Shown in pieces: positions 33,704 to 64,000 of a stretch of DNA of 64,000 bases. Origin of the DNA: a virus; the IMG/VR virus record IMGVR_UViG_3300042455_000321, positions 1 to 64,000 of that record. One strand, given 5' to 3'. The notes under the pieces are model-generated. The model was not told the DNA's origin. It searched no databases and worked only from the letters and a program-made list of their open reading frames with translations. Each line of letters begins with the position of its first letter. Positions within the stretch are counted from its first letter, which is position 1. Made by a program: the position numbers and the translations under genes.

Positions 33704-33712
33704 ACTATGACA
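33689..33712 (+). repeat. Shared early-gene leader, copy 3
   Basis: These 24 bases match 161-184, running through the start codon into ACA. Three unrelated genes (179, 33347, 33707) carry this leader, which could serve as a recombination seam. Confidence 0.8.
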
Positions 33713-33952
33713 GGGATAAATTACTTAAGTCAATTATCAAGCAATATGCAACAACATTGGCTACGAGAGGTAGCTGAATTAGATAACCCTATATCGTATC
33801 TTACTTCTGATTACGATGAATTTGAACACTTCTTAGGCATCTTTGATTGGTCAGATTCTATTATGGGTTACTCATTCTGGTCAGGGTTTTATAATAAGAT
33901 TGTTAACGAGGCTAACTTAGAGATAGCATTAAACAAATATGAAAATGGCTAA
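33707..33952 (+). CDS. Hypothetical early protein of unit B
   Basis: The 81-residue acidic, helical protein begins at leader copy 3. Codon choice (AAC CCT for Asn-Pro) and lack of GATC already fit unit B. It overlaps the next gene by 14 bases. No family recognised. Confidence 0.5.
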   Translation: MTGINYLSQLSSNMQQHWLREVAELDNPISYLTSDYDEFEHFLGIFDWSDSIMGYSFWSGFYNKIVNEANLEIALNKYENG

Positions 33953-34262
33953 CCCAATAACTAAAATCAAAGCAGTAAAGGATTTCGTACAAGATATCCT
34001 AAATGATTATCCTCAAGCAAGAGAGAGTGATAACTATCTATCTGCTGTTGTATGGCACAAACAAGTAAGGGCTACAACACAAGGTGATGTAACCTTTGAG
34101 AACTTCTTAACTATGTATAGCAATGGGTTGTTAGCATCGTCTGATAGTATAACAAGGGCTGCTCGTAAGTTAAAAGAAACTAACCCTAAATATAGGGGTA
34201 AGAACTATGACAACAGAAAACAATTAGAAGTAGAAACAAGAATGAATATTAATAAACTTTAA
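33939..34262 (+). CDS. Hypothetical protein, DNA-binding-like
   Basis: The 107-residue helical protein (start at 33939 or at the second ATG, 33945) contains ARESDNYLSAVVW and a basic SSDSITRAARKLKETNPKYRGK segment resembling small phage HTH proteins that act near replication genes. Function unconfirmed. Confidence 0.5.
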   Translation: MKMANPITKIKAVKDFVQDILNDYPQARESDNYLSAVVWHKQVRATTQGDVTFENFLTMYSNGLLASSDSITRAARKLKETNPKYRGKNYDNRKQLEVETRMNINKL

Positions 34263-34272
34263 AACTAAACAA

Positions 34273-34524
34273 ATGGCAAAGAAAAGAAAAGTATTTGAGA
34301 TTGATGCAGAAAACATTATGCTTCAGAAATTATCTGACTTCAAAGAGGAGCTATATGAGAGAGTACCTACTGATATCTATGAACTTATAAAGCATGATAC
34401 TATAAATAGTCTTATTGAACTATGCTACAAAGCAGGGTTTCAAGATGGGGCTATAGATATAGGAGAGATGATACAAGACATTATTAAAGGAGAGGTTGAA
34501 GGACCTAACGTAAACCCTAATTAA
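34273..34524 (+). CDS. Hypothetical protein
   Basis: The 83-residue helical protein has a basic start (AKKRKVFEIDAENIM) and an acidic end. It precedes the next gene by one base. No family recognised. Confidence 0.5.
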   Translation: MAKKRKVFEIDAENIMLQKLSDFKEELYERVPTDIYELIKHDTINSLIELCYKAGFQDGAIDIGEMIQDIIKGEVEGPNVNPN

Positions 34525-34525
34525 T

Positions 34526-34735
34526 ATGAGACAACTAATATACTGGGAAGTAGAACACCTACTCAAAATGGCTAATATATCTAACCCTGAGGTAACCCAT
34601 AGAATAACAGATAACATCTGTAAGATAGCCAAAGAACACTACGAAGGCAAAGAAGATGAGTCTAATGTAGTAAGAAAGGGTAGATGGTACGATAAGATTG
34701 TACCAAGATGGTTTGATAACGAAAGTAAATTCTAA
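34526..34735 (+). CDS. Hypothetical protein
   Basis: The 69-residue helical protein ends with a basic patch (RKGRWYDKIVPRWF). It is packed between neighbours with gaps of one and two bases. No family recognised. Confidence 0.5.
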   Translation: MRQLIYWEVEHLLKMANISNPEVTHRITDNICKIAKEHYEGKEDESNVVRKGRWYDKIVPRWFDNESKF

Positions 34736-34737
34736 TT

Positions 34738-34929
34738 ATGAAAAAAATAACACAAACATTTTTAGTTTTATTATTCTCAATAATAGCATCACTTATTGTA
34801 CCTATATTTGGACATTGGTACTACAAACATACAGGTATCGAACCTATTGGATTTTATTTTATATCAGGATTTGGAGGTTTTGCATTTGCTTTATTTAGAA
34901 TTTTTCAAATATGGGACACTAAATTTTAA
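34738..34929 (+). CDS. Small two-span membrane protein
   Basis: The 63-residue protein has hydrophobic helices at about 5-23 and 35-55 joined by a short loop. Early location suggests a host-membrane target. Function unknown. Confidence 0.5.
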   Translation: MKKITQTFLVLLFSIIASLIVPIFGHWYYKHTGIEPIGFYFISGFGGFAFALFRIFQIWDTKF

Positions 34930-34931
34930 CT

Positions 34932-35168
34932 ATGGAACTATACGTTAAGATACACGACGCAGAAATAATAGACAACAAGATTGTAATTAACAAGATAGTC
35001 ATTGTTGATGAGTCAGGAAAGATAATAAGAGAAGCACAAATGAATGATAAATTATTAGAATTACTAAAAGATATTCACACAAATACAAGATACCAAGAAA
35101 TTAAAAACTTATGGAAGAAAGAGTTTGGTGATGAGCCAAACCTTTCGTCCCTATTAACTATCAGATAA
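34932..35168 (+). CDS. Hypothetical protein
   Basis: The 78-residue protein has an N-terminal beta part (LYVKIHDAEIIDNKIVINKIVIVDESGKII) and a helical end. Start in AACTATG. No family recognised. Confidence 0.5.
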   Translation: MELYVKIHDAEIIDNKIVINKIVIVDESGKIIREAQMNDKLLELLKDIHTNTRYQEIKNLWKKEFGDEPNLSSLLTIR

Positions 35169-35170
35169 TT

Positions 35171-35184
35171 AACGTATTATAATA
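35171..35184 (+). promoter_or_regulatory. Unit B phage promoter motif, variant
   Basis: AACGTATTATAATA differs slightly from the AAACGTATTATATA seen ahead of virion operons. It lies in the 35169-35312 gap, 5 bases before a small ATG frame. Confidence 0.45.
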
Positions 35185-35189
35185 TTGAC

Positions 35190-35258
35190 ATGAAAAATAC
35201 AATCATTGTCGAAATCCAAGTAATTAGTGACGTTAAGTTTGAAGAAGGTTGTGGATAA
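35190..35258 (+). CDS. Very small frame after phage promoter motif
   Basis: A 22-codon frame (starting MKNTIIVEIQVISDV) follows the promoter-like motif and ends exactly within a DnaA-box sequence. It may be a leader peptide or chance. Confidence 0.25.
   Translation: MKNTIIVEIQVISDVKFEEGCG
35250..35258 (-). promoter_or_regulatory. Perfect DnaA box
   Basis: TGTGGATAA here is the reverse complement of the consensus DnaA box TTATCCACA. It is the only perfect copy I noticed in unit B. It lies in an AT-rich gap; unit B also encodes a DnaA domain IV-like protein at 39901, so it may be part of an origin or control site. Confidence 0.45.
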
Positions 35259-35287
35259 GTATTAACCTAATGGTTAAACAATGTGCA

Positions 35288-35295
35288 TATCTTTG
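35288..35295 (+). promoter_or_regulatory. Possible host-type -7 element TATCTTTG
   Basis: The octamer fits the Bacteroidetes -7 box 18 bases before the ATG at 35313. No good TTTG at -33 was found. It also argues against starting the gene at the GTG at 35283. Confidence 0.4.
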
Positions 35296-35312
35296 TTATA
35301 AACTTTAAAACT

Positions 35313-35687
35313 ATGGGCAGTAGACCTCAAAGAAAGAAAGAGTACGTACGCTTTAGTATGAACCCTGACAATTATAGAATTGTTTTGGGTGGCATTCTAT
35401 ACTTTGAAGTAGAATGTAATGATGAGTCTACCCCTGACTTAGGGCTAGAAGGTATAGAAGGGTTAGATAGTAAATGCTGGATGGATATGGCAATCAAAAT
35501 GGAATCTATCATAGCTATCAAACCAACTGGCTCATTAGAATCTGAAATCACCCATGGTAAAGCTTCAATAGTATTAGATAGTGGTCCTTGGGAAACTATA
35601 TCTACTAATATACCATACGAATATATGTGTGCTATATGGGAAGATTACCTAGCAGGACCAATTAAAACAATATATCGTGGGCAATAG
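35313..35687 (+). CDS. Hypothetical protein before sigma factor
   Basis: The 124-residue protein starts GSRPQRKKEYVRFSMNPDNYRI and is beta-rich. The ATG at 35313 is chosen over an upstream GTG that would overlap the promoter-like octamer. It overlaps the sigma-like gene by 11 bases. No family recognised. Confidence 0.5.
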   Translation: MGSRPQRKKEYVRFSMNPDNYRIVLGGILYFEVECNDESTPDLGLEGIEGLDSKCWMDMAIKMESIIAIKPTGSLESEITHGKASIVLDSGPWETISTNIPYEYMCAIWEDYLAGPIKTIYRGQ

Positions 35688-36531
35688 CTTCAAATCAATA
35701 TCTGTAAACCCTACTAACGTAGACTTTGACAATGATTACTCGTTGTCAATACTACTTAATGACCCTATCTTTAAAAGAAAGGCAGCCCAAATGAAGAATG
35801 AAGAAGCTATGGAGCTATTCAAACTTTATAAGTCAACAGGTGAGTTAAAGTATAGAGATAAGATTGTTGAGGGTTACATGAAGCTAATGCTATATGTTGC
35901 TATTAAGTATTGGCAACCTGGGTTTTTAGTAAGTGACTTATTACAAGAAGCCGTTATGGGTTTCATGTTAGGGATAGACAAGTATAACAATGAGAAGTAT
36001 TCAGAGTTTGGAAAGGCTAAGCTATCATCTTATTGCTTCTTCTATAGCAGGAAATACATAATAGACTTTATAGAAAAGAATAAATGTATAGTAAAGATTA
36101 CCTACTCACCGTTAAGAGCATCACAAAAACTTAAGAAGATGATGGACACAGCAGTAGCTGTAATGGAGTTGGACGAAAGAATGATACCTTTAGATGTTGT
36201 ATTAAAACAAAACGTAACTATGGAAATGGCAGCAGCACTCGGTGCACTATCTGCGACAACTGCAATCGTATCAACAAATAACCACGACGAGATAGACTTT
36301 GTATCCGATGGTGGTATATACTCTTATGAGATGTATAGCGTAACAGAATACGCTATTACATTTGAGCATATCAATACCCTTAATGAAAAGGCAAAAGACT
36401 TATTACTATCTAAGTATAACCTGATAGAACAGACGTTTGATGATATGTGTAGTAAACACAAAGTATCTACGTCAAGTGGCAACAAGTTTGTAAAAGAAAC
36501 TATAGCCCACTTAAAAAAATCTTTAAAATAA
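35677..36531 (+). CDS. Phage sigma-70-like factor
   Basis: The 284-residue protein starts with GTG, overlapping the upstream stop; the next in-frame ATG (35791) would remove 38 residues. Region 2 is clear at about 50-140: KIVEGYMKLMLYVAIKYW, DLLQEAVMGFMLGIDKYN, and SYCFFYSRKYIIDFIEKNK. A helical C-terminal piece (NEKAKDLLLSKY ... FVKETIAHLKKSLK) could be a degenerate region 4. It is the obvious candidate to direct host polymerase to the AAACGTATTATATA motif ahead of later operons. Confidence 0.78.
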   Translation: MGNSFKSISVNPTNVDFDNDYSLSILLNDPIFKRKAAQMKNEEAMELFKLYKSTGELKYRDKIVEGYMKLMLYVAIKYWQPGFLVSDLLQEAVMGFMLGIDKYNNEKYSEFGKAKLSSYCFFYSRKYIIDFIEKNKCIVKITYSPLRASQKLKKMMDTAVAVMELDERMIPLDVVLKQNVTMEMAAALGALSATTAIVSTNNHDEIDFVSDGGIYSYEMYSVTEYAITFEHINTLNEKAKDLLLSKYNLIEQTFDDMCSKHKVSTSSGNKFVKETIAHLKKSLK

Positions 36532-36543
36532 TTCACAAATAAA

Positions 36544-36575
36544 TTTGGAAATGTTAATTTAAAATACTACCTTTG
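36544..36575 (+). promoter_or_regulatory. Host-type promoter before unit B ERF operon
   Basis: TTTG at 36544-36547, a 20-base spacer, and TACCTTTG at 36568-36575 fit the Bacteroidetes consensus. ATAATTCACAAA at 36528-36539 is shared with the unit A early promoter. Predicted transcript start is near 36582, right before the cloverleaf-like leader. Confidence 0.85.
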
Positions 36576-36588
36576 CTTTGGTAAAGGC

Positions 36589-36645
36589 GAGGTAGTCACT
36601 ACGAGTGTGGGCTCACAACCCAATAGAGCGAAGCTATTCTACCTC
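36589..36645 (+). ncRNA. Cloverleaf-like 57-nt leader RNA
   Basis: A perfect 7-bp outer stem (GAGGTAG at 36589, CTACCTC ending 36645) encloses three small hairpins: CAC-loop-GTG, TGGG with a 7-base loop CTCACAA closed by CCCA, and ATAG with a 7-base loop closed by CTAT. It is a tRNA-like outline without T-loop consensus. It lies at the very 5' end of the predicted ERF message, so a regulatory leader is likely. Confidence 0.5.
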
Positions 36646-36675
36646 TCAATTTATAACAACTAAAACAACAACACA

Positions 36676-37098
36676 ATGACAAATCTGTACAAGGCCCTTG
36701 CGGCATTCCAACAAGAAGTCCCTGTGATTCACAAGGCGACTCAAGGTTATGGTTACAGCTACGCTGACCTACCTGCAATTTTCTCAATCATCAACCCATT
36801 AATGAAAAAGCATGGGTTAGGGTTTACGCAGATGATGACAGACATCGGATTGCAAACTACTATCTTCCATTGCGAGAGTGGTGAAGCTATTAGTTCAACT
36901 GCAACTATTCCTCAAGGCGTTCAGCTTAAAGGTATGAATGACTTCCAAGTATTAGGCTCTGCTATTACCTACATTCGTAGATATGCATTGTCATCAGCAC
37001 TTGGGTTAGTTACCGATAAAGATACTGACGCATCTGGCGAACAAACATCTGCACCACGTCAAGCAAGTTTTAACCCTAAAAAAGACCTTTCATTCTAA
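36676..37098 (+). CDS. erf: ERF-family single-strand annealing protein (unit B)
   Basis: The 140-residue protein has the ERF core: GYGYSYADLPAIFSIINPLMKKHGLGF and NDFQVLGSAITYIRRYALSSALGLVTDKDTDA. It ends KKDLSF, resembling an SSB-type tip. Sequence is only distantly related to unit A's ERF at 31675. It is coupled by TAATGG to an exonuclease gene, forming a second recombination pair in the window. Confidence 0.9.
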   Translation: MTNLYKALAAFQQEVPVIHKATQGYGYSYADLPAIFSIINPLMKKHGLGFTQMMTDIGLQTTIFHCESGEAISSTATIPQGVQLKGMNDFQVLGSAITYIRRYALSSALGLVTDKDTDASGEQTSAPRQASFNPKKDLSF

Positions 37099-37895
37099 TG
37101 GCAAATCAATTATTTATGGACTGGTTGAACTCACCTGAGTTCCGCCTTTCCTTCTCGACCGCTAAAAACTTATTAGACTCCCCTGCTAAATTCCAATGGG
37201 AGATAACAAACAAACTAATGTACGAACCTGATGAGCCTACCGAGGCTATGAGATTAGGTACTCTTATCCATACATTAGTGTTAGAGCCACATGAGTTCGG
37301 TACTAAGTTTGTTATTCAACCTGACTTTGGTAGAACTAAACCTGAGTTAGAAAAGAAAGAACATTTCTTTCAAGAGAACAAAGGAAAGATTATTGTTAAG
37401 GATAAAGAAGTAGATAAAGCTGAGCGTTGTATTAAGTATATCCCTGACCACGTTATGGATATCATTAACGCTGGCAAGACTGAGTTTGTTATTAATCAAC
37501 CCATAGCTAACGTGCCTTTCAAGGGTATCATAGATTGCTATAACGAAGGTGTTATAGAGGTTAAAACTACAAGCGAGTCATCTGCTGATAAGTTGATTGC
37601 TTCTTTCTTTAACCTTAAGTATCCTATGCAGGCTGCTATCTATAGCGTACTTGCTAAGAAAGAGTTTGGGTTAGATTACTATCCTAATACTACTTACTTG
37701 ATTATCCAAACGGTAGCACCTTATAGAAGCTATTTTATAAAAGCTGATAAGGATTACCACTTGTATGGTCAGAAGTTATTGGATGTTGCATTAACAATTT
37801 ATCACCACGTAAAAAAAGAAGGCTTATGGGATAAAGGTTGGGATATCCAATCAATCGGATTACCTGCATGGGCATCAAAACAAATTGAAGAATAA
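37098..37895 (+). CDS. PD-(D/E)XK exonuclease (RecB/Cas4-like)
   Basis: The 265-residue protein has a RecB-type nuclease signature: GTLIHTLVLEP near residue 55, D146 in FKGIIDCY, E153-V-K155 in VIEVKTT, and the QAAIYSVLAKK helix. It is an analogue of unit A's YqaJ enzyme but a different family branch. It should supply 3' single strands to the ERF protein. Confidence 0.88.
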   Translation: MANQLFMDWLNSPEFRLSFSTAKNLLDSPAKFQWEITNKLMYEPDEPTEAMRLGTLIHTLVLEPHEFGTKFVIQPDFGRTKPELEKKEHFFQENKGKIIVKDKEVDKAERCIKYIPDHVMDIINAGKTEFVINQPIANVPFKGIIDCYNEGVIEVKTTSESSADKLIASFFNLKYPMQAAIYSVLAKKEFGLDYYPNTTYLIIQTVAPYRSYFIKADKDYHLYGQKLLDVALTIYHHVKKEGLWDKGWDIQSIGLPAWASKQIEE

Positions 37896-38013
37896 CAGCC
37901 CGAAGTACAAGGGAACTCGAAGCACAGGCGTGGCATACCATAAGAACTGCTCGCTCCTAATCGTTGGTAGGCTTTGTTGGCAACTCAAAGGTGTATAGAT
38001 AAAAGTTGCAAAT
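37896..38013 (+). ncRNA. Noncoding stretch before tRNA cluster, possibly structured RNA
   Basis: No frame of note is present. Bases are richer in G+C than surrounding genes. Short hairpins are visible, such as TGG-CATA-CCA and GCAAC paired with GTTGC just before the first tRNA. It may be the 5' part of the tRNA transcript or a degenerate tRNA; I could not fold a full cloverleaf. Confidence 0.3.
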
Positions 38014-38093
38014 AGTCAGGTGGCGGGATTGGTAGCCGCATTAATGGGCAGTAAATCCATTAAAATTTATAGGTTCGAGTCCTGTCCTGACTA
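38014..38093 (+). tRNA. tRNA-like gene with elongated anticodon arm (possibly GUA)
   Basis: The acceptor stem AGTCAGG/CCTGACT is perfect, the D arm GCGG...CCGC and T arm with GGTTCGAGTCC are canonical, and the variable loop has 5 bases. The anticodon arm is 23 bases: TTAATGGG pairs with TCCATTAA (8 bp with one G-T) around the loop CAGTAAA. Position 33 would be A instead of the universal U, with GTA as possible anticodon (Tyr). The body looks more like tRNA-Leu. Confidence 0.75.
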
Positions 38094-38107
38094 CTAAAAT
38101 AAAAATT

Positions 38108-38209
38108 ATGAAAAACGAAAAATATTGGAATGGATTTATATTAGGTTTCTTTATTGGTGGAATAATAGGAATATTCACATTAAGTTTAATTATAAAAGGA
38201 ACATTATAA
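38108..38209 (+). CDS. Small membrane protein between tRNA genes
   Basis: The 33-residue protein is one hydrophobic helix rich in Gly (FILGFFIGGIIGIFTL) with a charged start. It fits exactly between two tRNA genes. Its size makes it uncertain. Confidence 0.4.
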   Translation: MKNEKYWNGFILGFFIGGIIGIFTLSLIIKGTL

Positions 38210-38214
38210 AAAAT

Positions 38215-38326
38215 AGTCAGGTGGCGGAATTGGTAGACGCTACTAGAGCAAATGCCGAAGGTCTCCTTGGTGCACCAAGCAATGTCAACTCTTGAGACCA
38301 TACAGGTTCGAATCCTGTCCTGACTA
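38215..38326 (+). tRNA. tRNA-like gene (Leu-type body) with aberrant 60-nt central region
   Basis: The acceptor AGTCAGG/CCTGACT, D arm GCGGAATTGGTAGACGC (Leu-like) and T arm ACAGGTTCGAATCCTGT are all canonical and nearly equal to the tRNA at 38014. Between D and T arms lie about 60 bases with no 5-bp anticodon stem. Instead GGTCTC (38260) pairs with GAGACC (ending 38299) and encloses the palindrome CTTGGTGCACCAAG. It may carry an insertion or act as a decoy. No anticodon assigned. Confidence 0.7.
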
Positions 38327-38328
38327 CA

Positions 38329-38424
38329 AAGTGGTAATAGACGAAAATGAAATTCCTGCTGTGATGTTAACTTAATCAGCACATTCAGAAGTAGAAATGA
38401 ACAACCGCAAATTGTTCGCCACTT
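38329..38424 (+). ncRNA. tRNA-like RNA between tRNA genes
   Basis: AAGTGG (38329) pairs with CCACTT (ending 38424). Inside are TGCTG/CAGCA with a 15-base loop and GAACAA/TTGTTC with a 7-base loop placed one base before the closing strand, exactly where a T arm would be. The T-loop consensus is absent. It could be a decayed tRNA or a structured RNA. Confidence 0.4.
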
Positions 38425-38425
38425 C

Positions 38426-38496
38426 AGCCAAGTAGTGTAATGGTAACACTCCACCATTGTAGGTGGGAGACGCAGGTTCGATCCCTGTCTTGGCAC
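38426..38496 (+). tRNA. tRNA, probably Thr (UGU), with shortened anticodon loop
   Basis: Acceptor AGCCAAG/CTTGGCA (6 bp plus one A-A mismatch), D arm GTGT...ACAC, 5-base variable loop GAGAC, and T arm GCAGGTTCGATCCCTGT are canonical. The anticodon stem CCACC/GGTGG is perfect but encloses only six bases, ATTGTA, giving anticodon TGT if read from position 33. This T-loop holds the only GATC found in unit B. Confidence 0.8.
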
Positions 38497-38534
38497 TAAA
38501 ACCTTTCGGAGTATGGGTTAACCGAGTATATAAT

Positions 38535-38777
38535 ATGAGTACAACGTATGAGATGAGAGAAGGACAAGGGTCTTTATTCATCAACGAAAAGAAAACGTCA
38601 GACAAACAACCTGACTACAATGGTAATGTTCTTATCAATGGAAAGAAAATGCAAATGGCAGGTTGGAAAAAACAATCCAAGTCTGGCTCTACATTCTTAT
38701 CAATCCAAATTAGCGAACCAAGAGAAGCATCTACTACATCGGCTAAGCCTGCTGTAAGCGATGACTTACCATTTTAA
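38535..38777 (+). CDS. SSB-like / DUF736-like protein with DLPF tip
   Basis: The 80-residue protein contains GQGSLFINEKKTSDKQPDYNG and GWKKQSKSGSTFLSIQIS, similar to DUF736-type small proteins, and ends SDDLPF. The ATG at 38535 is used because an upstream in-frame ATG lies inside the tRNA. The tip resembles that of bacterial SSB and of unit A's 2883 protein. A single-strand-binding or replisome-recruiting role is inferred. Confidence 0.65.
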   Translation: MSTTYEMREGQGSLFINEKKTSDKQPDYNGNVLINGKKMQMAGWKKQSKSGSTFLSIQISEPREASTTSAKPAVSDDLPF

Positions 38778-38783
38778 CTAATC

Positions 38784-38823
38784 GGTCCACGGCTCTCGCT
38801 TAAGTGTGGGAGCTTGTTGGACC
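38784..38823 (+). other. Strong hairpin before phosphoesterase gene
   Basis: GGTCCA at 38784 pairs with TGGACC ending 38823; inside, GCTCTC pairs with GGGAGC with one G-T. There is no T-run. The hairpin ends 13 bases before the ATG at 38837, so it may protect or control this message. Confidence 0.5.
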
Positions 38824-38836
38824 ACTAACCCAGACC

Positions 38837-39898
38837 ATGAAAGAACAAGATATAAAATTAGCTATCGAACAAGAGTGTGATGCAGTAGGTATACCTATAA
38901 CATCGGTTAAGCATTATTGGTATAAAGGTGAACACTTTTCTATCAATGCTCTTAACCCATACGATAGGGCTACTTCATTCTTGCAATCCATAGAAAAGAT
39001 TTGTGAGACCTACCTTAAAGGTGGTATACGCAAACCCAAAGTAATCAAACAACTTGACACACCTGTAGCCATTAAGGTAACCCTTAGTGATATGCACGTA
39101 GGTCTTGAACCTAACCCTAAGAATGGTGGTATGTTTGAATACTCTTACAACAGAGATATATTCTACCACAACATTGACTATGTCTATAGTCGAATACTTC
39201 ATCATTACAACAGCAACGGCACTTTTGATTTGTTGATAATTGATGACTTAGGTGATGGGCTAGATGGTTACGAGGGCAAGACAACTCGAGGTGGTCATGA
39301 CTTAGAACAGAACATGAGTTCTACTGAAGCGTTTGAAACCTTCGTGTCTGCTAAGCTTTCTTTAATAGAAAGATGTATAGATGAAGGCGTTGCTAACAAG
39401 TTCCTAATTAGAAACGTATGCAACGATAACCACGCTGGTAGCTTTGCTTCTATATCTAATATGGCTATCAAGATGATACTTGACCGAGTATATGAAGAGT
39501 CGGTAGTTGATTTCTATATCCTTGAGAAGTTCATGAGTCACTTCACCTATGGCGACCATGCATTTATTATTACCCATGGTAAGGACAATAAGTACATGTT
39601 CAAAGGATTGCCATATCAATTGAATGATAAGACCGTAGCGTTCATTAACGAATACATTGACCACTTCGGTATAGATAACAAGTTCATTCATCTTGAGAAA
39701 GGCGACCTACATAGGATAGGATATGATAGAACTAAGAAGTTTGATTATAGAAACTTCATGAGTTTTGCTCCCCCCTCTGCTTGGGTTCAGCATAATTTTG
39801 GAGATGGGTATTGTGGGTTCTCTATCCAGATTATCCCTAAGTATAGTGGGGAGATATCCCATACAGATTACTATTTTGATTTAACTAAAAAGAAATAA
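38837..39898 (+). CDS. Metallophosphoesterase (DNA repair exonuclease-like)
   Basis: The 353-residue protein starts at the ATG at 38837 rather than a GTG 33 bases upstream inside the hairpin. Metal-binding motifs: SDMHVGL at about 84, DDLGDGLDG, NVCNDNHAG (the GNHD equivalent), and IITHGKD. The N-terminus contains an HTH-like stretch. It is an analogue of unit A's enzyme at 27604, but lies in the replication region. Confidence 0.78.
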   Translation: MKEQDIKLAIEQECDAVGIPITSVKHYWYKGEHFSINALNPYDRATSFLQSIEKICETYLKGGIRKPKVIKQLDTPVAIKVTLSDMHVGLEPNPKNGGMFEYSYNRDIFYHNIDYVYSRILHHYNSNGTFDLLIIDDLGDGLDGYEGKTTRGGHDLEQNMSSTEAFETFVSAKLSLIERCIDEGVANKFLIRNVCNDNHAGSFASISNMAIKMILDRVYEESVVDFYILEKFMSHFTYGDHAFIITHGKDNKYMFKGLPYQLNDKTVAFINEYIDHFGIDNKFIHLEKGDLHRIGYDRTKKFDYRNFMSFAPPSAWVQHNFGDGYCGFSIQIIPKYSGEISHTDYYFDLTKKK

Positions 39899-39900
39899 CA

Positions 39901-40290
39901 ATGGAAGAAATATTAGAGTCGTTTAAAGAAGACCCAAAGGTTTATATTTGTACTGAATGTCATAGACCATACTTTACTAAAAGAAAGTCGCTTGATGCAG
40001 AAACAGTAACAAAATCTATCAGTAAGTATTACGGTGGTATTGATTTGAGAGAAAAGACTAGAAGACAAACCCATGTAATAGCTAGACAAATGGCTTTTAA
40101 AATTCTCCATAGTTATACATCGATGTCCCTTAAAGAGTGTGCTGACTATTACAAACCTGCAACCCAAGACCATACTACTGCCCTTCATGGCATAAGAATT
40201 ATAAGTGATAGGATTAAGTACGAAGACAAAATTGCAGATGATTATAACAATATTATAGAACTAATAATTAAAGACCATGACCTCAATTAA
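39901..40290 (+). CDS. DnaA domain IV-like protein with N-terminal Cys pair
   Basis: The 129-residue protein has CTECHRPYF near the N-terminus (half a zinc site) and a DnaA C-terminal-like domain: RQTHVIARQMAFKILHSYTSMSLKECADYYKPATQDHTTALHGIRII. DHTTALHG corresponds to the DnaA-box-reading helix. As in unit A, the ATPase part is missing. It could bind DnaA boxes such as the one at 35250. Confidence 0.75.
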   Translation: MEEILESFKEDPKVYICTECHRPYFTKRKSLDAETVTKSISKYYGGIDLREKTRRQTHVIARQMAFKILHSYTSMSLKECADYYKPATQDHTTALHGIRIISDRIKYEDKIADDYNNIIELIIKDHDLN

Positions 40291-40408
40291 TGACACAGCT
40301 AGACGCATAGAAGAAATATGCAAACAGCTAGAACGCCACGCTAAGATAGAGCAAGACCTCAAAAGAGAGATAAGAGAACTAATGTTAAAACTTAAACTTA
40401 AATTATAA
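40277..40408 (+). CDS. Small coiled-coil protein
   Basis: The 43-residue protein is one amphipathic helix (RRIEEICKQLERHAKIEQDLKREIRELM). It overlaps the DnaA-like gene by 14 bases and shares TAATG with the next, so it is probably translated. Confidence 0.5.
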   Translation: MTSINDTARRIEEICKQLERHAKIEQDLKREIRELMLKLKLKL

Positions 40409-40737
40409 TGTCTGAAAATAAGTCAGCCGTATCGGCTTTGGCACGCGCTTTGATATATACTAAACTAGCAAGTGAATACTTTGACTTCTTTATTGTAGAA
40501 AGCGGTGTTAAGTTTGATGATAAACACTTCATCAAAACCAATAGCAATAAGTTAAAAGCAGTACTCAGAGACATGGGCATGGTGGTATCACCTAGCGTAA
40601 GAGATGCTTACGTTAAAGATATGGACAACGCACCAGCCGTAGACTCTATAGCTAACATCTATCTTACTTTATCTGAGGCCAACAGAGTAGTATTAGAAGA
40701 TTACGCAGAGGAACTTTTAAAAGGTCAAAAGAAATAG
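40408..40737 (+). CDS. Conserved hypothetical, homologue of 2555-2899 in unit A
   Basis: The 109-residue protein aligns over its length with unit A's 114-residue protein at 2555 (SALARALIYTKLASEYFDFFI, NAPAVDSIANIYLTLSEANR). Conservation between two otherwise different replication modules suggests a real replisome role. No known domain recognised. Confidence 0.7.
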   Translation: MSENKSAVSALARALIYTKLASEYFDFFIVESGVKFDDKHFIKTNSNKLKAVLRDMGMVVSPSVRDAYVKDMDNAPAVDSIANIYLTLSEANRVVLEDYAEELLKGQKK

Positions 40738-40763
40738 GATTTACAACAACACAACTCAAATCA

Positions 40764-40785: not shown

Positions 40786-40796
40786 AAATCTGTACC

Positions 40797-55636: not shown

Positions 55637-55642
55637 ATAATT

Positions 55643-55668: not shown

Positions 55669-55669
55669 T

Positions 55670-58600
55670 TTAGTGTCCAGAGCTCTGCTTAACTTCTAAT
55701 CTTATACCTTGTAGGTTAATTTGCTGATTTGTAGGGAAGTTTAATTGTACCCAAGGAGTTTTAGTTCTTATTCTATCTCCTACTATGTTTTGAGTATCAT
55801 ACTCTGTATTGGTAGTAGCGTTATTGCTCAATCTATTTCTATACACAGAGCTAAACATTTCTCCTTCTCTCATAGCGTAGTTGCCATCGCTAATCAAACT
55901 AATCTGGGTTAAGTTATTATTTACATTGGTAGAGTTGTCTCTAGCATATATAACTGTACTTGTAGTTGTTAATTGACCCATTAAGATTACTGATAATGGT
56001 TCTATTGTAGCAGGGTATGTACCTATGCTATATGGAGCAGCTATCCAAGCGCCTGTTGTAGCTTGATTAAACACACCAGTAGTATTGTCAAATTCTTTAT
56101 ATAGTTTCAACCCAGTTGTACCGTATTGAGAACCAATAGAGAATACATCATCACCTACTCTTATCCATTGGTCAGGATTATCTTCATATCCACCTATCCA
56201 AGTATTAGCTTGCCAGTTATATACATAAGATACATTCTTGTTTCCTATGTATTGATTAATATGATTATCTCCACAGTTACCAGGATATTGTTTACCTGTT
56301 ATACTTGGGTTAGGGCAAGTAACAAACAACTCATATGTGTATGGGTTAATACCACATTTAATATTAGCTGCACTATTAGCGCTATCATCAAATGGTAAGT
56401 TTCTAAATACTTGATTCCAAAGGAAGCCTGCTTTTTGTTGGCTAATAGGAGAAGCCCCATCTCCAGCAAACTGTATTATTTCCCTATTAAGGGCGTCTGC
56501 CCAGAAAACAATACCTTTGTACCCTACAACGCTTTGAGGGCTAATGCAACCCCAAAGATTAGTAAGTGGGAGTATTGTACCAAGTACACCTGCAGATGAT
56601 GTTAACGCAGGGGTTTGGTCAGCAGAATATATTTGTTGTTGTCCTATTAATGCTATATAACTACCAGAGTTACATAACACCAACATACGTCCACCTTGGT
56701 TAGCTTCTTTGCTAGACAAGAATATAGTAGTAATTGGACCTGATGATTGGTCTACAGATGTTTCATCTAATGCGTCAAATGTAGATAACCCATTTACATT
56801 AGAGTTAGGTAATTTAACATTAGACCATCTAATAGAATTGGTTAATTGTTTTTGACCTATATTATCTATAGGTGCAATTCTGCCAAAGTCATGTATCCAA
56901 TTGATTTGATTTATTTCATAACGTGCTTTACTCAACATCATTTGAGAACCACCTTGCGCATCTCTTGATTGAGTATATGTGTCTCCAAATAATTGACTTC
57001 CGCTTATATTAAATGGAGTTCCAAAAGTAGTAGAACTTGTTATTTCTCCAAACATTGCTACTTCATATTCTGAAGGAGTTGTTAATACAGGGGTATAAAT
57101 ACTTACAAATATTTCTTCTTGAAATCTTCTGACTGGGTAGCTAAAGCTAGCACCTGTCCATGGAGATGGAGCTGAAGAGTCTAAAAATATTTGATTTATT
57201 TGTGCAGATATATAATTCAACATTGTTGCTCTATCTGCCCCTAATATAACGTATCCATCTATTGCATTTATAACTGGATAAGTTAATGTTACAGGAGTTA
57301 AAGAACCAGTTGGTTTTATATTTAATTCACATAAATCACCAGCCGTATAGCTATATCCTAATCCATCTTTATAAAGTGATGACAAAGGAATTGCTAACCC
57401 ATAATATTCTAATTTTGTTGAAGTTTCATTTTGGTCATAAACCAATACACCATCAGCATTTTTATAAGCAAAACGCATCATGTCTGGCATGAAAGAAATA
57501 AAATTAGATGCCTTAGTATTTTTTGCAACACATATAGAATAATAGTTAGCCCAACTAGGTATTACTCCACCAGCTTGCGTTATAGTAGTATCAAAATCTA
57601 CATACTCTAAAAGTTGTTTATTTACTGGTTCATATGTAGGTACATTAATAGAGTTAATTTTTTTAACTCCAGATTTTCTTAAAGCACTATCGTAATACTG
57701 AATACCATACTCATATGAAGAGTTAGGATAAAATGCTCTTTGTTTTAAACCTGATGCATAAGCAGCTGCATTTAAAACAATACAGTTTTGACCTACACTA
57801 TTACTTAATGGGTATATAAATTCATCTCCAGTTGTGCCTAATACTACATTAGCTGCAAACTCATTTAATTCTTTTAATATATTTAATCGGATTCCTCTAG
57901 CAGGAGTATTATAAACATCTTCTAGTTTAGGGTCTCCAGTTTCATTTAATTTAATTAATGACTTCTCAGATATGTAATGGGGCAATTCAATTAAATTACC
58001 ACTATACCCATCAATAGACTTACTTAAAGTCAATGTTCCATCAGGAGCAACAGTTGCAGGATTTGATTGCTCAAATATTATAGTACCACAATCTACAGGA
58101 AACCCATAGTTTACGCCATTAACATAATCTCTTGTTATAATACAACAATAATAAAATCCTGTAGAAGCTCCTTGGTTTCTTACCATTAATAAAGTTGGAG
58201 TACCCCCAAGTATTGGTCCGTTATTTCCTGCTGGTGAACTACCCCAAGATACTTGTGCACTTGTAGGTGCTGTATATAGTCCTGTAGTTACATCTGCAGG
58301 GATATCTGGAGGTGTTGCTGGTGTATTATAACCTTCAAGATTATTTGCCAAGAATAGTCTATTAGAGGCTAATTCTAAAGCTTTAGAAGTTATAGGTAAA
58401 CTATCAAATTGTTTAAAAGCTTCTGTAGATGATAAGGTATATTGTATATTTGTACCATTCCAATTTTGATAGGTAATAAATATAAATGGAGCACCTGGGT
58501 CATTATGGTCTGCTACTAACTGAGCATCAGTATAACTAACTGGACCAAATCCAAAGTTATAAGTTCTTGAAGTTTGGTCATATTTATCAAACACCCTAAT

Positions 58601-59575
58601 TACTTGATATGATGCAGTCTCTAAATTAATAGCAACAAATTCTATTTTCTTCCAATTATCAGGAATAACCTGTGCTTTATCTAAATCTATTGTAACTATA
58701 TTAGAGCTATAAGATAGTGCAGTTATTTCTTCTTGTCTAGCTGACAAAGAAGTTACACTATAAGGAGCTAATACAGATATAAAGTTGTCCTCATTGGTTA
58801 TTCTATAAGTAAACTGATAGTTATTCTTTTGTATAATAATAGGGTCAGTTGCACTACTTCCTCTAACACTTGTTAAAGGTACGTGACCTGGCTCTGTAAT
58901 TAAAGATAACTCTTCAAAAGAAGGTTTATTAGTATAGTAATCTTTATTTACATCAACATATCTAATGTTGTTTCTATTATCAGTAAATATCAATTGATTG
59001 CCACTAACCCTAGCAGATATAAAGTCAGTAGGTAAAAACCCTAAATCATCTATCCCTGAATTATTAACCCATTCTCCATTTAATAATACAGATGATTGGC
59101 TTGGCTTGATTGTAGTTATTTTAGAACCTGAAGCATCATATTGTAAAGCCACTTTTACTATATAAGAGTTAGCAGTTTCAATAGGATTGCCATATTGAGG
59201 TGTATAAATAAATAAGTAAATGTATCTTGTATTGCTACTTAACGACTCTGTGTCATCAGTTGCATACCCAATACATTTAGCACCATCTTTGTCATAACCC
59301 CTAACGTAGTTTCTATTACTAACAAATGGGTTTAACCCAGGCATCGAAGTAAATAAACTTGTCCAATCTGTATTACCTGCAAATGGTTCTATAACACCTG
59401 CATCTCCACCTGTATTATAACTTTCCATACCACCACCTTGTCCATCACTAGGGCCTAATAAAGAACCCAAAGAAAAATGGACATTCATAGCAGAAGAATA
59501 CGACTCCTTGTCTTGAAGATGGGGAGCCGTATCAGTATCTAAACCTTTCGTAAAAAGTTTTGTAATTTGAGCCAT
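55670..59575 (-). CDS. Large tail nozzle/stabilisation-like protein
   Basis: The 1301-residue, beta-rich protein begins KLFTKGLDTDTAPHLQDKESYSSAMNVHF, a start common to phage stabilisation or nozzle proteins that describe a TDT-D-x-YRDALNVR-like motif. It has propeller-like repeats (SNRLFLANNLEGYN, YDQTSRTYNFGFGP). It probably forms the distal part of a short tail. It starts 12 bases after the fibre gene at 59588 in the same direction. Confidence 0.6.
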   Translation of the reverse strand: MAQITKLFTKGLDTDTAPHLQDKESYSSAMNVHFSLGSLLGPSDGQGGGMESYNTGGDAGVIEPFAGNTDWTSLFTSMPGLNPFVSNRNYVRGYDKDGAKCIGYATDDTESLSSNTRYIYLFIYTPQYGNPIETANSYIVKVALQYDASGSKITTIKPSQSSVLLNGEWVNNSGIDDLGFLPTDFISARVSGNQLIFTDNRNNIRYVDVNKDYYTNKPSFEELSLITEPGHVPLTSVRGSSATDPIIIQKNNYQFTYRITNEDNFISVLAPYSVTSLSARQEEITALSYSSNIVTIDLDKAQVIPDNWKKIEFVAINLETASYQVIRVFDKYDQTSRTYNFGFGPVSYTDAQLVADHNDPGAPFIFITYQNWNGTNIQYTLSSTEAFKQFDSLPITSKALELASNRLFLANNLEGYNTPATPPDIPADVTTGLYTAPTSAQVSWGSSPAGNNGPILGGTPTLLMVRNQGASTGFYYCCIITRDYVNGVNYGFPVDCGTIIFEQSNPATVAPDGTLTLSKSIDGYSGNLIELPHYISEKSLIKLNETGDPKLEDVYNTPARGIRLNILKELNEFAANVVLGTTGDEFIYPLSNSVGQNCIVLNAAAYASGLKQRAFYPNSSYEYGIQYYDSALRKSGVKKINSINVPTYEPVNKQLLEYVDFDTTITQAGGVIPSWANYYSICVAKNTKASNFISFMPDMMRFAYKNADGVLVYDQNETSTKLEYYGLAIPLSSLYKDGLGYSYTAGDLCELNIKPTGSLTPVTLTYPVINAIDGYVILGADRATMLNYISAQINQIFLDSSAPSPWTGASFSYPVRRFQEEIFVSIYTPVLTTPSEYEVAMFGEITSSTTFGTPFNISGSQLFGDTYTQSRDAQGGSQMMLSKARYEINQINWIHDFGRIAPIDNIGQKQLTNSIRWSNVKLPNSNVNGLSTFDALDETSVDQSSGPITTIFLSSKEANQGGRMLVLCNSGSYIALIGQQQIYSADQTPALTSSAGVLGTILPLTNLWGCISPQSVVGYKGIVFWADALNREIIQFAGDGASPISQQKAGFLWNQVFRNLPFDDSANSAANIKCGINPYTYELFVTCPNPSITGKQYPGNCGDNHINQYIGNKNVSYVYNWQANTWIGGYEDNPDQWIRVGDDVFSIGSQYGTTGLKLYKEFDNTTGVFNQATTGAWIAAPYSIGTYPATIEPLSVILMGQLTTTSTVIYARDNSTNVNNNLTQISLISDGNYAMREGEMFSSVYRNRLSNNATTNTEYDTQNIVGDRIRTKTPWVQLNFPTNQQINLQGIRLEVKQSSGH

Positions 59576-59587
59576 TAAAAAGCTTTA

Positions 59588-61051
59588 TTAGTTGTCAAAT
59601 AATTGCAAGTATTTAATACCTAAACCTGGTATATAAACTCTTATTTTTTGATTAGATGGAGTATTTGCTGGCGTACCATCAATTAATGCATCGTCAACAT
59701 AAAATTCAGGGTCAGGATTATTTGCATTATGAACACCAATTGCCTTAGCTACACCTGGGTTATAACCACCTAGTTTATATGTTCCATTAGTTTCATTAAT
59801 ATCAACACCATAGTTTGTACTACCTAATCTGTAAGCGTCATTAGATGTATTCATAATTAAACCAGCACCTGCACTTTCGCTTAAAGTATAAACTTGATTT
59901 AATAAATCTATTTTTAAACCAAAATTATTTGTGTCATTGCCCATAAAGAAAGTCTCGTTTATGATGTCAATTTTTAATAATCTATGGTTAGTAGCACCAC
60001 CTAATATACTAATACCAGTTGATGGAAATAAAGTTAATCCTCTATCGTATGTTGCATCTCCTAAGAAAATACCATTTGACGCAGAGTTAATACTTAAACC
60101 TCTTGGGAAAGAAGCATCACCTAAAAATATAATTTTAGTAGTATTGTTGTAACTCAATTGCATTTCATTAGTACCAAATCTACCAATTGCAGATGAAGTT
60201 AATGTCATACCTGAAGAGTTAGACGTAAACCCTGCAAATAAAGAAGTTGCTGTATAGTCAAACTTAACTGTTGAGCTTCCTAAATAACCAGTTGTATCTG
60301 CTAATATAAGACCTACATTTGTACTGTAATTACCTAATTTGTAAGTTGGCGCTACCGTATCAATACGAAGACCTTTAGTTGCAATTGCATCACCTAATGC
60401 ATATACTGAGTTATTACCATCAATAGAAAGTTGTTTTCTTGTATCTAAATCTCCAACAAGATGAATGTTCCCATTAAGGTCTAATCTAATACCTTTGTTA
60501 GCTGCTCCTTTCTTAGTAGAAACCGTTTGAACTTTATCATCTACAGTAAATATAACATCGTTACCTACAGAGTCAGTATCACCACATTGGAAATATGGAC
60601 CAGAAGAAGTAGAGTTGTTTGCAACAAAGCTACCACCTACCATTTTAATTTCATTAGTAGTTTGTTGTAATAAACTTTGAATAAAGTTAGAACCATCACT
60701 ATATGGAAAATATCCTGCAGCAATTGCAGTTAATACACCAAACTCTAATATGTTCCAATATCCATTGCTACCTGCTGGAAAGAAAATAGCTGATACTGGA
60801 GTTAAGTTCCAAAAGTAAAGACCATTATTAGCAACTGTAGCATCTTCTGTTACAATAGCTAATTGAGAGCTTTCATTGTTTAGAACACTTAATGTTCCTG
60901 TATTTTCAGTTACTTGTGCTCCATTTTGAGAGAACAAAAGTTTAACTTCATCTTGAATACCTTTCAATGAGGTATCAGTCCATTCTACTTTACCAGAAGG
61001 AGTTTGTTTTGCGTTAGTAATTAAATTACTTAAAGTATCTAAAGTTGCCAT
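59588..61051 (-). CDS. Tail fibre with short beta repeats
   Basis: The 487-residue protein has an N-terminal attachment domain (about 1-115) shared with the 61058 protein (QTPSGKVEWTD, LKGIQDEV, NNESSQLAIV, NGLYFW), then many repeats of about 18-22 residues of the form GL-I-x-YxLGDxxxN (about 190-440), probably a beta-helical trimeric shaft, and a small C-terminal piece. A host-contacting fibre is likely. Confidence 0.65.
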   Translation of the reverse strand: MATLDTLSNLITNAKQTPSGKVEWTDTSLKGIQDEVKLLFSQNGAQVTENTGTLSVLNNESSQLAIVTEDATVANNGLYFWNLTPVSAIFFPAGSNGYWNILEFGVLTAIAAGYFPYSDGSNFIQSLLQQTTNEIKMVGGSFVANNSTSSGPYFQCGDTDSVGNDVIFTVDDKVQTVSTKKGAANKGIRLDLNGNIHLVGDLDTRKQLSIDGNNSVYALGDAIATKGLRIDTVAPTYKLGNYSTNVGLILADTTGYLGSSTVKFDYTATSLFAGFTSNSSGMTLTSSAIGRFGTNEMQLSYNNTTKIIFLGDASFPRGLSINSASNGIFLGDATYDRGLTLFPSTGISILGGATNHRLLKIDIINETFFMGNDTNNFGLKIDLLNQVYTLSESAGAGLIMNTSNDAYRLGSTNYGVDINETNGTYKLGGYNPGVAKAIGVHNANNPDPEFYVDDALIDGTPANTPSNQKIRVYIPGLGIKYLQLFDN

Positions 61052-61057
61052 ATTTTA

Positions 61058-61489
61058 TTAAGGTGTTACAGTTATAGTTTTTACAGAAGCATCTGGCTTT
61101 ACATATTTCAATGAGCCACCTTGGTAAAACAAGACAACCCCATTTGATTTTGCAGCAGGAGTAGTTGTTACAGTTGGGATATAACCATTTGTAGCTTGTA
61201 GATACCAAAACCCACCATCGTTAGCAGCTACAATTAAATCGCCATTAGCTGGCCCTGTAGCTTGCCAAGTGTAAAGTCCAACACCCAAAACTAATGCGCT
61301 TTGAGAGTTGTTCTTGCCTTGTGCACTTAAAGCTATAGTAGTAGGTACTACAACCATACCACGAGCACGAAGTTCTTCAGCAATGTCGTCTTGTATGTCT
61401 TTCAACCCATTAGTACCAGACCAAGACACCGTATTGCTAGGTGTCTGGTCGGCATTAAAGATTTTATTAAGTAAAGTTAGAATTGTCAT
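61058..61489 (-). CDS. Small tail fibre/adaptor sharing N-terminal domain with 59588
   Basis: The 143-residue protein repeats the attachment domain of the larger fibre (QTPSNTVSWSG, LKDIQDDI, KNNSQSALVLGVGLYTW) and ends after a short beta piece. It may be a truncated paralogue or the adaptor to which the fibre binds. It is the first gene behind two minus-strand phage promoter motifs. Confidence 0.6.
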   Translation of the reverse strand: MTILTLLNKIFNADQTPSNTVSWSGTNGLKDIQDDIAEELRARGMVVVPTTIALSAQGKNNSQSALVLGVGLYTWQATGPANGDLIVAANDGGFWYLQATNGYIPTVTTTPAAKSNGVVLFYQGGSLKYVKPDASVKTITVTP

Positions 61490-61505
61490 TATTCCTATTA
61501 TTTAG

Positions 61506-61519
61506 TATATAATACGTTT
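61506..61519 (-). promoter_or_regulatory. Unit B phage promoter, minus strand, proximal
   Basis: Read on the minus strand this is AAACGTATTATATA, an exact match to the plus-strand copies, 16 bases before the ATG of the gene ending at 61489. Confidence 0.7.
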
Positions 61520-61527
61520 ATATTACC

Positions 61528-61541
61528 TATATAATACGCTT
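61528..61541 (-). promoter_or_regulatory. Unit B phage promoter, minus strand, distal
   Basis: AAGCGTATTATATA on the minus strand, one base different from the 14-mer, 22 bases upstream of the proximal copy. The pair is a tandem arrangement just after the stop of the 61545 gene. Confidence 0.6.
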
Positions 61542-61544
61542 TAC

Positions 61545-61874
61545 TTAGATAACTTCAGCTCCTGGAACAAAGGTTAAATTTAATTGAACAGCAGCCCAAT
61601 CAAGAATCCAAGCGTTGCTTCCGTCCCATTCTGGGTATTGGTCAGGACCTAAAGTTAAGTTACCTTGGGTTAAAGTTGCACCACCCATTGCAGGAGTTGG
61701 AGTAGGGTCAGTAGCTCCTTCAACTGGAGTGGTTACTGGTGCTGCTCCTAACAAGCTGTAATAGAATGTTGCAGAGTTTTCTAAGTTGTCATTTACAGAG
61801 ATTAAGTTTAATACTACTGCTTCGTCTGTTTGTCCGTTTGTCCAGATTGCTACTGGCTCGATTGCTTTTTGCAT
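61545..61874 (-). CDS. Hypothetical virion protein
   Basis: The 109-residue protein has a beta-like start (KAIEPVAIWTNGQTDEAVVLNLISVNDN), a Thr/Pro-rich middle and a C-terminal WAAVQLNLTF strand. Similar small proteins accompany Bacteroidetes phage fibres. Function unknown. Confidence 0.5.
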   Translation of the reverse strand: MQKAIEPVAIWTNGQTDEAVVLNLISVNDNLENSATFYYSLLGAAPVTTPVEGATDPTPTPAMGGATLTQGNLTLGPDQYPEWDGSNAWILDWAAVQLNLTFVPGAEVI

Positions 61875-61897
61875 TTTTATTTGATTTTAAGGGTTTA

Positions 61898-64000
61898 TTA
61901 ATCTACTTGATTTACTGTTAATATAGCTGATGCTGCACTTGGTGGTGGAGAACCTGCTGGATAGTATTCTATTGATACTCTTGTGTGGTCTGAAGTTGAC
62001 CATACCAATTGATAAAAATCTCCTGGTGCTGCTTCTACAAAGTAATTCCAAGCTGCTATGATTGTACCTGGTGTACCTCCGTGAGAGTTAGGTACTGATA
62101 CAAAACCAGCTGTTGCAGGAATGTCATCAGAAGTAGTATTACCATTCTTTCTTAACCAAATTGTAACATCTTTTATTTGTCCGTCTGTATTTTGCAATTG
62201 TAAGCTGAATTGGATATTATAGAAACCACCATTGCTCATTAAGATATAAGTACGGTCTCCAAATGGGTCAGCTACTACACTTATTCCGTGACCACTAATA
62301 TCTGGTGTCGTAAACTTAACCCCATAGCCTGTATTGCTAGAAGCAGCTGTTTGAGTTGTATCTTCTTGGAAAGCACCAAATGATTTAGTTGTAGGTGATG
62401 GTATTGCTTGGGTTGATAAAGTACCTGCGCTATCTGCTACCACCATTCTAGTTCCAGAACCAGCTAATGTATTAGCTTGAACATTACCTGAAGCATATAC
62501 CTTTAATAGATTATCATTACCATAGAAACCTAAACCTAAATAATTGCTAGAACTAAAATCAGATGAATGATTGTATATAATTGTTGCACTATTGTTATTG
62601 GAATTAGCTTTTCCTAGTAAGTAAGCTAATGATGTACCAGAAGATAAATCGCTTTTTAATGCATTTATAGCCCAAGAATAATAGTCAAAAAATGCAACAC
62701 TATTAGCACCACTTGTAAATCTAACTGTTCCATTAACATCTAATTTGTACCCAGCGTCTGTTGATGTACCTATTAGTACATTACCAGTTCCTGCTATTCT
62801 AACTTTTTCTACATCATAAGGAGCAAAAGTAAATGCACTTCCTCTAAATTGAAATATTTTATAAGCACTTGTATCTCTATTAAATGCTAACTGATAAACA
62901 TAATCTGCATCTGTATTTAATTCCCAAGAAGTAGATACTTCTTTAACTGTTAATCTACCTACAGCGCTTGCTGTTCCTATGCCTACATTGCCATTAGAGT
63001 TGATACGCATACGCTCAACTCCACCACCTGCATTAAATGTTATTTTACCTCCCCCATAATTTTGTGTTATAGAAAGGATTTCATTACCAGCATCTTGTTG
63101 AATTGACGCTTGACCACCAATGCCTAAATTAGTTACATATGTAGAAGGATAACTTACAGAAAATCTTTGATAATTAGAGGTAAATACTTCTAATTGTCCA
63201 TTAGGACTTGTTGTACCAATTCCTACACCCCAAGATGAACCTTGAGTTATACTTAATTTATTAATACCATAATTAGAATCATAAATGTGATAATTATAAC
63301 TACCACCAAGCATACCAGAATACCAATATGTGTTAAAACCTTCTCTATAGTTAATAGCAGTCGCATAACCACTTCCCCCTCTTTCTATAGTGTATACCGC
63401 TTGACCTGCACTATATAATCTAGCATCAGCACCATTAACATCTAATTTGTAACCAGCGTCTGTAGTGGTATTTATAAGTACATTTCCAGAATTTGCTACA
63501 GCAAATGGATACGTTCCTTGTGTTATATTATTAATTTGTAAAGTACCACCAGCTGAACTATATATTGCATATTTGTTTCCTGTAGATGTAGAATTTAAAT
63601 ATATAGAAGCTATATTACTATTTGCAATACTCAAAGTAGTTTCTGTTCCTGATACTGCATTAAATCCGCCTGAAGCACCTATACCTACATTACCACTCGT
63701 AGTTATACGCATTCTTTCTGTAGGAATAAAATTTGTATTTGGCGTTAAACCGCTGTCGGTATAAAATCTCATTACACCTCCATCTAAATTAATATTAGTA
63801 GCAGTAGTTTTATCACTATACCAATATCCAGAATTATTGTAATAAGATTCACCAGCAATATACTTAGAACCACCTGCTTGGATAGAACCTATATATATAC
63901 CACTTCCATCTGCATAATCTTTAAATTTAGCATTCCAAAAAGGAGAAGGAGTCATACCTATAGTTAAAGAACCACTAATTGTACCTTGACCATTTACTTG
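61898..64000 (-). CDS. Tail fibre with C1q/TNF-like receptor-binding end (5' end outside window)
   Basis: The frame is open to the window edge; an internal ATG at 63955 is preceded by 15 more sense codons, so the start lies beyond 64000. Visible are repeats of the form GNVLIxTxTDAGYKLDVNG and NVGIGT, a typical Bacteroidetes phage fibre shaft. A C-terminal jelly-roll of about 150 residues (FGAFQEDTTQTA, YNIQFSLQLQNT, VTIWLRKNG, SIEYYPAGSPPP) resembles the C1q/TNF-like tips of phage fibres. It binds the host surface by inference. Confidence 0.75.
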   Translation of the reverse strand, partial: QVNGQGTISGSLTIGMTPSPFWNAKFKDYADGSGIYIGSIQAGGSKYIAGESYYNNSGYWYSDKTTATNINLDGGVMRFYTDSGLTPNTNFIPTERMRITTSGNVGIGASGGFNAVSGTETTLSIANSNIASIYLNSTSTGNKYAIYSSAGGTLQINNITQGTYPFAVANSGNVLINTTTDAGYKLDVNGADARLYSAGQAVYTIERGGSGYATAINYREGFNTYWYSGMLGGSYNYHIYDSNYGINKLSITQGSSWGVGIGTTSPNGQLEVFTSNYQRFSVSYPSTYVTNLGIGGQASIQQDAGNEILSITQNYGGGKITFNAGGGVERMRINSNGNVGIGTASAVGRLTVKEVSTSWELNTDADYVYQLAFNRDTSAYKIFQFRGSAFTFAPYDVEKVRIAGTGNVLIGTSTDAGYKLDVNGTVRFTSGANSVAFFDYYSWAINALKSDLSSGTSLAYLLGKANSNNNSATIIYNHSSDFSSSNYLGLGFYGNDNLLKVYASGNVQANTLAGSGTRMVVADSAGTLSTQAIPSPTTKSFGAFQEDTTQTAASSNTGYGVKFTTPDISGHGISVVADPFGDRTYILMSNGGFYNIQFSLQLQNTDGQIKDVTIWLRKNGNTTSDDIPATAGFVSVPNSHGGTPGTIIAAWNYFVEAAPGDFYQLVWSTSDHTRVSIEYYPAGSPPPSAASAILTVNQVD

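Follow-up and report, generated by a model that had tools for sequence, protein, structure and literature searches.

Near-complete loss of GATC, CCGG and further restriction-type words from a phage genome in IMG/VR record IMGVR_UViG_3300042455_000321

Viruses that lack particular short words in their DNA have been described in several systems. Avoidance of restriction sites is found in about one tenth of viral genomes, GATC being among the avoided sites reported, and the effect is most pronounced at the Type II sites of non-temperate phages (Rusinov et al. 2018, PMC6286503). In the haloviruses of the HF1 group, the whole clade is without GATC and without one other palindrome (PMC7230728), and in phiX174 and other enterobacterial phages GATC is absent beyond chance (PMC5014478). 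In this study, we have analysed a window of 64,000 nucleotides, positions 1-64000 of IMG/VR record IMGVR_UViG_3300042455_000321, whose full length is 91,067 bases. The record most likely joins two phages, here called A and B, and B, which occupies its right-hand part, has nearly lost the words GATC, CCGG, CACTG/CAGTG, GAATTC and GGATG.

The case of B resembles these systems in part. As in the non-temperate double-stranded DNA phages surveyed by Rusinov et al. 2018 (PMC6286503), the loss is near-complete and concerns short, mostly palindromic Type II sites in a tailed phage; the host enzymes are known there, whereas for B we infer them, and at least four words have gone from B and a fifth mostly so, one of the set being non-palindromic. 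The HF1-group viruses (PMC7230728), unlike B, infect archaea and have their own methylases, their second missing word is CTAG and not CCGG, and an attack on methylated GATC is suspected. In the case of phiX174 (PMC5014478), the loss of GATC has been tied at least partly to Dam/MutH mismatch repair, whereas B loses other words as well and its host phylum differs. Type II systems whose specificities fit the missing words have been described in published methylomes of Bacteroidota, namely in a strain of Prevotella intermedia, where the GATC and GGATG systems are active and a GAATTC system is silent (PMC5608340), and in Flavobacterium psychrophilum, which has a system for CCGG as well as a GATC methylase of the orphan type (PMC11837570).

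Words missing from phage B

An earlier note on this DNA, made by reading the letters, had reported a single GATC and no CCGG between 33707 and 64000. Our machine count agrees on both. For GATC, 96.6 sites are expected from composition and 70 from a maximal-order Markov model, whereas for CCGG the two expectations are 28 and only 5.5. The Markov value for CCGG is low because CpG words are rare, and the absence of this word in the window part of B alone is therefore suggestive only, a modest surprise that becomes solid once the rest of the B genome and its relatives are included. Neither word occurs in 64001-91067 of the record. For all B sequence in the record (57.4 kb), 130 GATC and 14 CCGG are expected from a second-order Markov simulation, with 1 and 0 observed. 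The circle obtained by completing B with an overlapping contig (see below) has 2 GATC where 152 are expected and no CCGG where 15.6 are; the second GATC falls within a small gene that has a leader repeat on either side, in the part absent from the record.

Codon bias was rejected as the cause of the depletion by permuting synonymous codons within each gene, a procedure that preserves the proteins and the codon usage of each gene. Over 200 shuffles, B is given 118 GATC (minimum 99) and 13 CCGG (minimum 6), against the 1 and 0 observed. The spelling of Asp-Pro, also remarked upon in the earlier note, points the same way: all 40 pairs in B are written GACCC, though GAT makes up 66% of the Asp codons, and 8 of the 10 pairs in A are written GATCC. 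Depletion is confined to particular words: TTAA, AGCT, TGCA, ATAT and TATA are all near expectation, so that palindromes in general are not disfavoured in B.

A scan of all words of four to six bases for depletion in B (completed circle) has highlighted three more: CACTG/CAGTG (none observed, 55 expected), GAATTC (none, 17 expected) and GGATG/CATCC (5, against 59 expected). CTAG, CATG and GAATC are reduced to about 0.4-0.5 of expectation. We take CACTG/CAGTG, GAATTC and GGATG to be the sites of TspRI-, EcoRI- and FokI-type enzymes, respectively. The words lost from B correspond to restriction-enzyme sites and not to palindromes generally.

The relatives of B were pooled by the identity of their terminase. 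Those with at least 93% identity (157 kb) have 11 GATC against 381 expected, no CCGG against 40, 5 CACTG against 123 and 1 GAATTC against 45. At about 80% identity (96 kb), the corresponding figures are 8 of 211, 0 of 18, 1 of 70 and 0 of 28; here GGCC is also gone (0 of 58) and GGATG is partly reduced (31 of 91). Relatives at 31-38% identity have 337 GATC against 526 expected, and CCGG is above expectation (115 against 66). Avoidance of GATC, CCGG, CACTG and GAATTC is common to the relatives whose terminase is at least 80% identical and is not found in those at 31-38%; it is therefore a property of the clade of B itself, and its age is sufficient to cover about 20% protein divergence. The avoided set drifts between lineages, as seen for GGCC and GGATG, which is expected if it is set by host enzymes.

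Weighing the causes of the loss

B is a tailed phage, which probably infects Bacteroidota and is probably not temperate; it very probably escapes several host Type II restriction systems passively, by loss of their sites. The earlier note had proposed long selection by a restriction system cutting at GATC, and probably by one at CCGG. This remains the best-supported candidate cause, the loss being codon-independent, word-specific, clade-wide, unlike deamination and extended to three more restriction words. Unmodified phage DNA entering the cell would be cut at every recognition site, genomes with fewer sites would leave more progeny, and synonymous changes (e.g., GAT CC to GAC CC) would build up until GATC, CCGG, CACTG/CAGTG and GAATTC were essentially lost and GGATG nearly so. 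Host restriction would be the selecting agent, with MboI/DpnII-, HpaII/MspI-, EcoRI-, FokI- and TspRI-like specificities. In favour of this, Pfam matched no methyltransferase, no restriction enzyme and no HNH nuclease in the 62 open reading frames (ORFs) of B or in the 9 ORFs of the stretch absent from the record. Enzymes of the required kinds do occur in Bacteroidota, in the two methylomes cited above and in 345 sampled genomes from the class of a Flavobacteriaceae metagenome-assembled genome (MAG), of which 9 carry DpnII-like and 17 HpaII-like genes; no sampled genome carries both.

Several points weigh against this explanation. One of the avoided words, GGATG, is not a palindrome. CCCG and CCGC likewise fall below expectation in B, and some of the shortage of CCGG may reflect a more general avoidance of CCG. 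The negative result for methyltransferases comes from Pfam, and many ORFs of B match nothing and could hide a protective function. The lack of an integrase match in B is weak evidence for a non-temperate life. Finally, both the cognate enzymes and the host are inferred. A scan of bacterial genomes with the B terminase returned nothing beyond relatives at 27-33% identity; most of these lie in MAGs of Bacteroidota and others in assorted, probably misbinned MAGs, and the host was not found. A comparison of 12 kb of B with 398 genomes of one order, made for spacers or shared DNA, gave only short or weak matches and matches to transfer RNA (tRNA) genes, no more than two candidates being scored per genome, so that spacers could have been missed.

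The single-change neighbours of GATC bear on whether selection or mutation removed the sites. In B, GACC (219 against 164 expected) and GATA (684 against 581) are enriched and GATT/AATC is not (513 against 543), a pattern expected of selection on synonymous sites but not of deamination of methylated cytosine. Decay by deamination could have hit both GATC and CCGG if both were cytosine-methylated, but the product GATT/AATC is precisely the neighbour that shows no excess, CTGG/CCAG is at expectation (307 against 308), and Asp-Pro has moved to GACCC, which is no deamination product. With the C-to-T products of the missing words not in excess, deamination was rejected as the cause and is scarcely credible. 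A further possibility is that a nuclease of B itself cuts GATC and the other words in host DNA, its own genome being safe by the absence of sites. Many ORFs of B lack a family match, among them those of proteins of 546, 1232 and 1729 residues, and could encode such an enzyme; however, the Pfam result given above includes no restriction-type or HNH nuclease, the PDDEXK protein adjoining ERF resembles phage exonuclease VIII, and five unrelated specificities would be required, which makes this extremely improbable.

Other explanations address GATC in particular. Evasion of methyl-directed mismatch repair (Dam/MutH) has been discussed for phiX174 and other enterobacterial phages, and in phiX174, which is without GATC, restoring sites lowers the mutation rate (PMC5014478). 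This predicts, however, that GATC alone is affected, whereas CCGG, CACTG/CAGTG, GAATTC and GGATG are also lost from B or nearly so. Repair directed by Dam and MutH is, moreover, characteristically a gammaproteobacterial and not a Bacteroidota trait, which also counts against this explanation, and we consider it very unlikely. GATC might instead be attacked by a non-classical host system, either a methylation-dependent nuclease (DpnI/Mrr-like) acting after a host GATC methylase or a phosphorothioate-based targeting of GATC. Type IIM systems at GATC are a documented exception in being avoided by phages among modification-dependent systems (PMC6286503), Mrr-type attack on methylated GATC and phosphorothioation of GATC have been discussed for haloviruses without the word (PMC7230728), and the orphan methylase of F. 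psychrophilum (PMC11837570) also speaks for such a route. The joint loss of the other four words would still be left over and needs further systems anyway, and we regard this explanation as unlikely.

Site elimination is a documented phage strategy, and passive escape by B would add a particularly thorough, codon-controlled case from an uncultured clade, its missing words being a concrete, testable prediction of the enzymes of the host. It is conceivable, though doubtful, that the five-word set can be read as a fingerprint of the restriction systems carried by a single uncultured lineage of Bacteroidota hosts, a CASTG-type system among them, and that the drift between the 80% relatives reflects changes of host. 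If this were true and general, sets of avoided words could help to assign hosts to uncultured phages.

Two phages probably joined in one record

The record is written as a single contig in which A has B-like sequence to its left (1-165) and to its right (from 33325), as in an insertion. A and B might thus be one real molecule, a cointegrate or A inserted into B, with a true change of history at the boundary. A second IMG/VR contig (IMGVR_UViG_3300042555_000449, 62,956 bases; here G001), which overlaps B at 99.96-99.98% identity, argues against this: it holds B unbroken across 33325-40077 and 42226-91067, running uninterrupted through the site of the supposed insertion, and it bridges 91067 back to 33325 via 7.4 kb absent from the record. 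Completed in this way, B would be a circle of about 65.1 kb. It begins at about 33325-33349, and the start at 33707 given in the earlier note is not borne out, 33325-40077 being contiguous in G001. A third contig, G007, is 96% identical to A and passes from window 31500-33349 directly into 154-2158, and the exact closure sequence of A occurs in four IMG/VR contigs; by these junctions, the genome of A closes into a circle of about 33.2 kb. Furthermore, terminase and portal are encoded separately by A and by B, the pattern of the A/B join is present in no other IMG/VR contig searched, and the join falls inside a repeat of 24-28 bases present in both.

A and B are thus most likely two unrelated phages joined by the assembler at this shared leader repeat, and that they form one molecule seems quite improbable. 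The sharp change of history that had been read into the A/B boundary consequently fails as biology, the contrast in words reflecting two phages that have each had their own history of restriction. As the record is probably a fusion of two phages, comparing its halves as one genome is unsafe. That positions 1-165 are A overlapping its own start was considered and rejected, the bases being B-like. The coordinates of these and other features are collected in Table 1.

Table 1. Coordinates of the two phages, the repeats at their joins and the residual sites of B (window positions unless stated)
Feature	Position	Strand	Remarks
Phage A, separate self-closing genome	182..33324	none	avoids CTAG, TCGA, GAATC, CTAAG, AAGCTT
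Phage B, window part	33325..64000	none	runs on to 91067 of the record; nearly without GATC, CCGG, CACTG/CAGTG, GAATTC, GGATG
B-like stub, left end of record	1..165	+	163/165 identical (98.8%) to 33384-33548
Leader repeat TTTAAAAACAAATAAACTATGACA, left join of B-like stub and A	161..184	+	identical to 33689-33712
Leader repeat where A yields to B, probable mis-assembly point	33322..33349	+	27/28 identical to 154-181
Sole GATC of B in the record	38480..38483	none	G57-A58-T59-C60 of tRNA T-loop TTCGATC
tRNA gene with the sole GATC	38426..38496	+	ARAGORN; Rfam RF00005, 44.6 bits
Leftover GGATG/CATCC site of B, one of five	35479..35483	none	word scan
Leftover GGATG/CATCC site of B	37781..37785	none	word scan
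Three leftover GGATG/CATCC sites of B outside the window	84807, 88606, 88854 of record	none	word scan

The leader TTTAAAAACAAATAAACTATG joins A to B-like sequence on either side. Its sites are window 161-184, 33322-33349 and 33689-33712, and G001 56005, 56213 and 56573, and it stands immediately upstream of small ORFs in both of the unrelated phages A and B. Stretches of IMG/VR contigs that contain its core number 45, and some of these have 2-3 copies. It may be a common expression leader of Bacteroidota or a site where small gene cassettes recombine. A and B also have in common a region of about 1 kb (window 25543-26494 in A, record 85257-86262 in B) with 65% DNA identity, which indicates that genes have passed between their phage groups. 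Nucleotide searches of a phage collection with pieces of A and B gave no match.

The restriction-type words of A differ from those of B. About 25 GATC and dozens of CCGG had been noted in A, and the count gives 25 and 59; GATC, however, is depleted here too (0.33 of expectation), and CCGG is enriched 1.8-fold. The avoided set of A is larger than that of B and different, comprising CTAG (0 observed, 89 expected), TCGA (1, 54), GAATC (1, 54), AAGCTT (0, 35), CTAAG (4, 78) and CCCG (1, 33). When A is pooled with its relatives, CTAG occurs 2 times against 613 expected, TCGA 9 against 339, GAATC 13 against 358, AAGCTT 12 against 231 and CTAAG 48 against 535, and CCGG reaches about twice its expectation.

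The remaining GATC and other features of B

The sole GATC of B in the record had been explained by the constrained sequence of a tRNA T-loop. Its location in the T-loop is correct, but the explanation is only partly right: two neighbouring tRNAs of B have the T-loops TTCGAGT and TTCGAAT, and tRNA structure therefore does not force GATC. The site may simply be tolerable, or its tRNA may be a recent arrival. The anticodon loop of this tRNA is of unusual length, and ARAGORN reads a two-base anticodon. A third tRNA gene of B, leucine-tRNA-like (38215-38326), is matched by Rfam and not called by ARAGORN, and host genomes repeatedly contain short stretches that match it exactly.

Recognizable genes of B include those for a RecE-like exonuclease, ERF, a DnaB-type helicase with primase, a sigma factor, an SU10-type capsid protein and a ferritin-like protein. 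In the B stretch absent from the record (G001 51018-53168; L120:11018-13168), an amidoligase-like gene adjoins a glutamine-amidotransferase-like gene, the match of the latter being just under the cut-off. The gene of the ferritin-like protein (window 49167-49667, Pfam PF00210) lies between those of two very large proteins without a family match.

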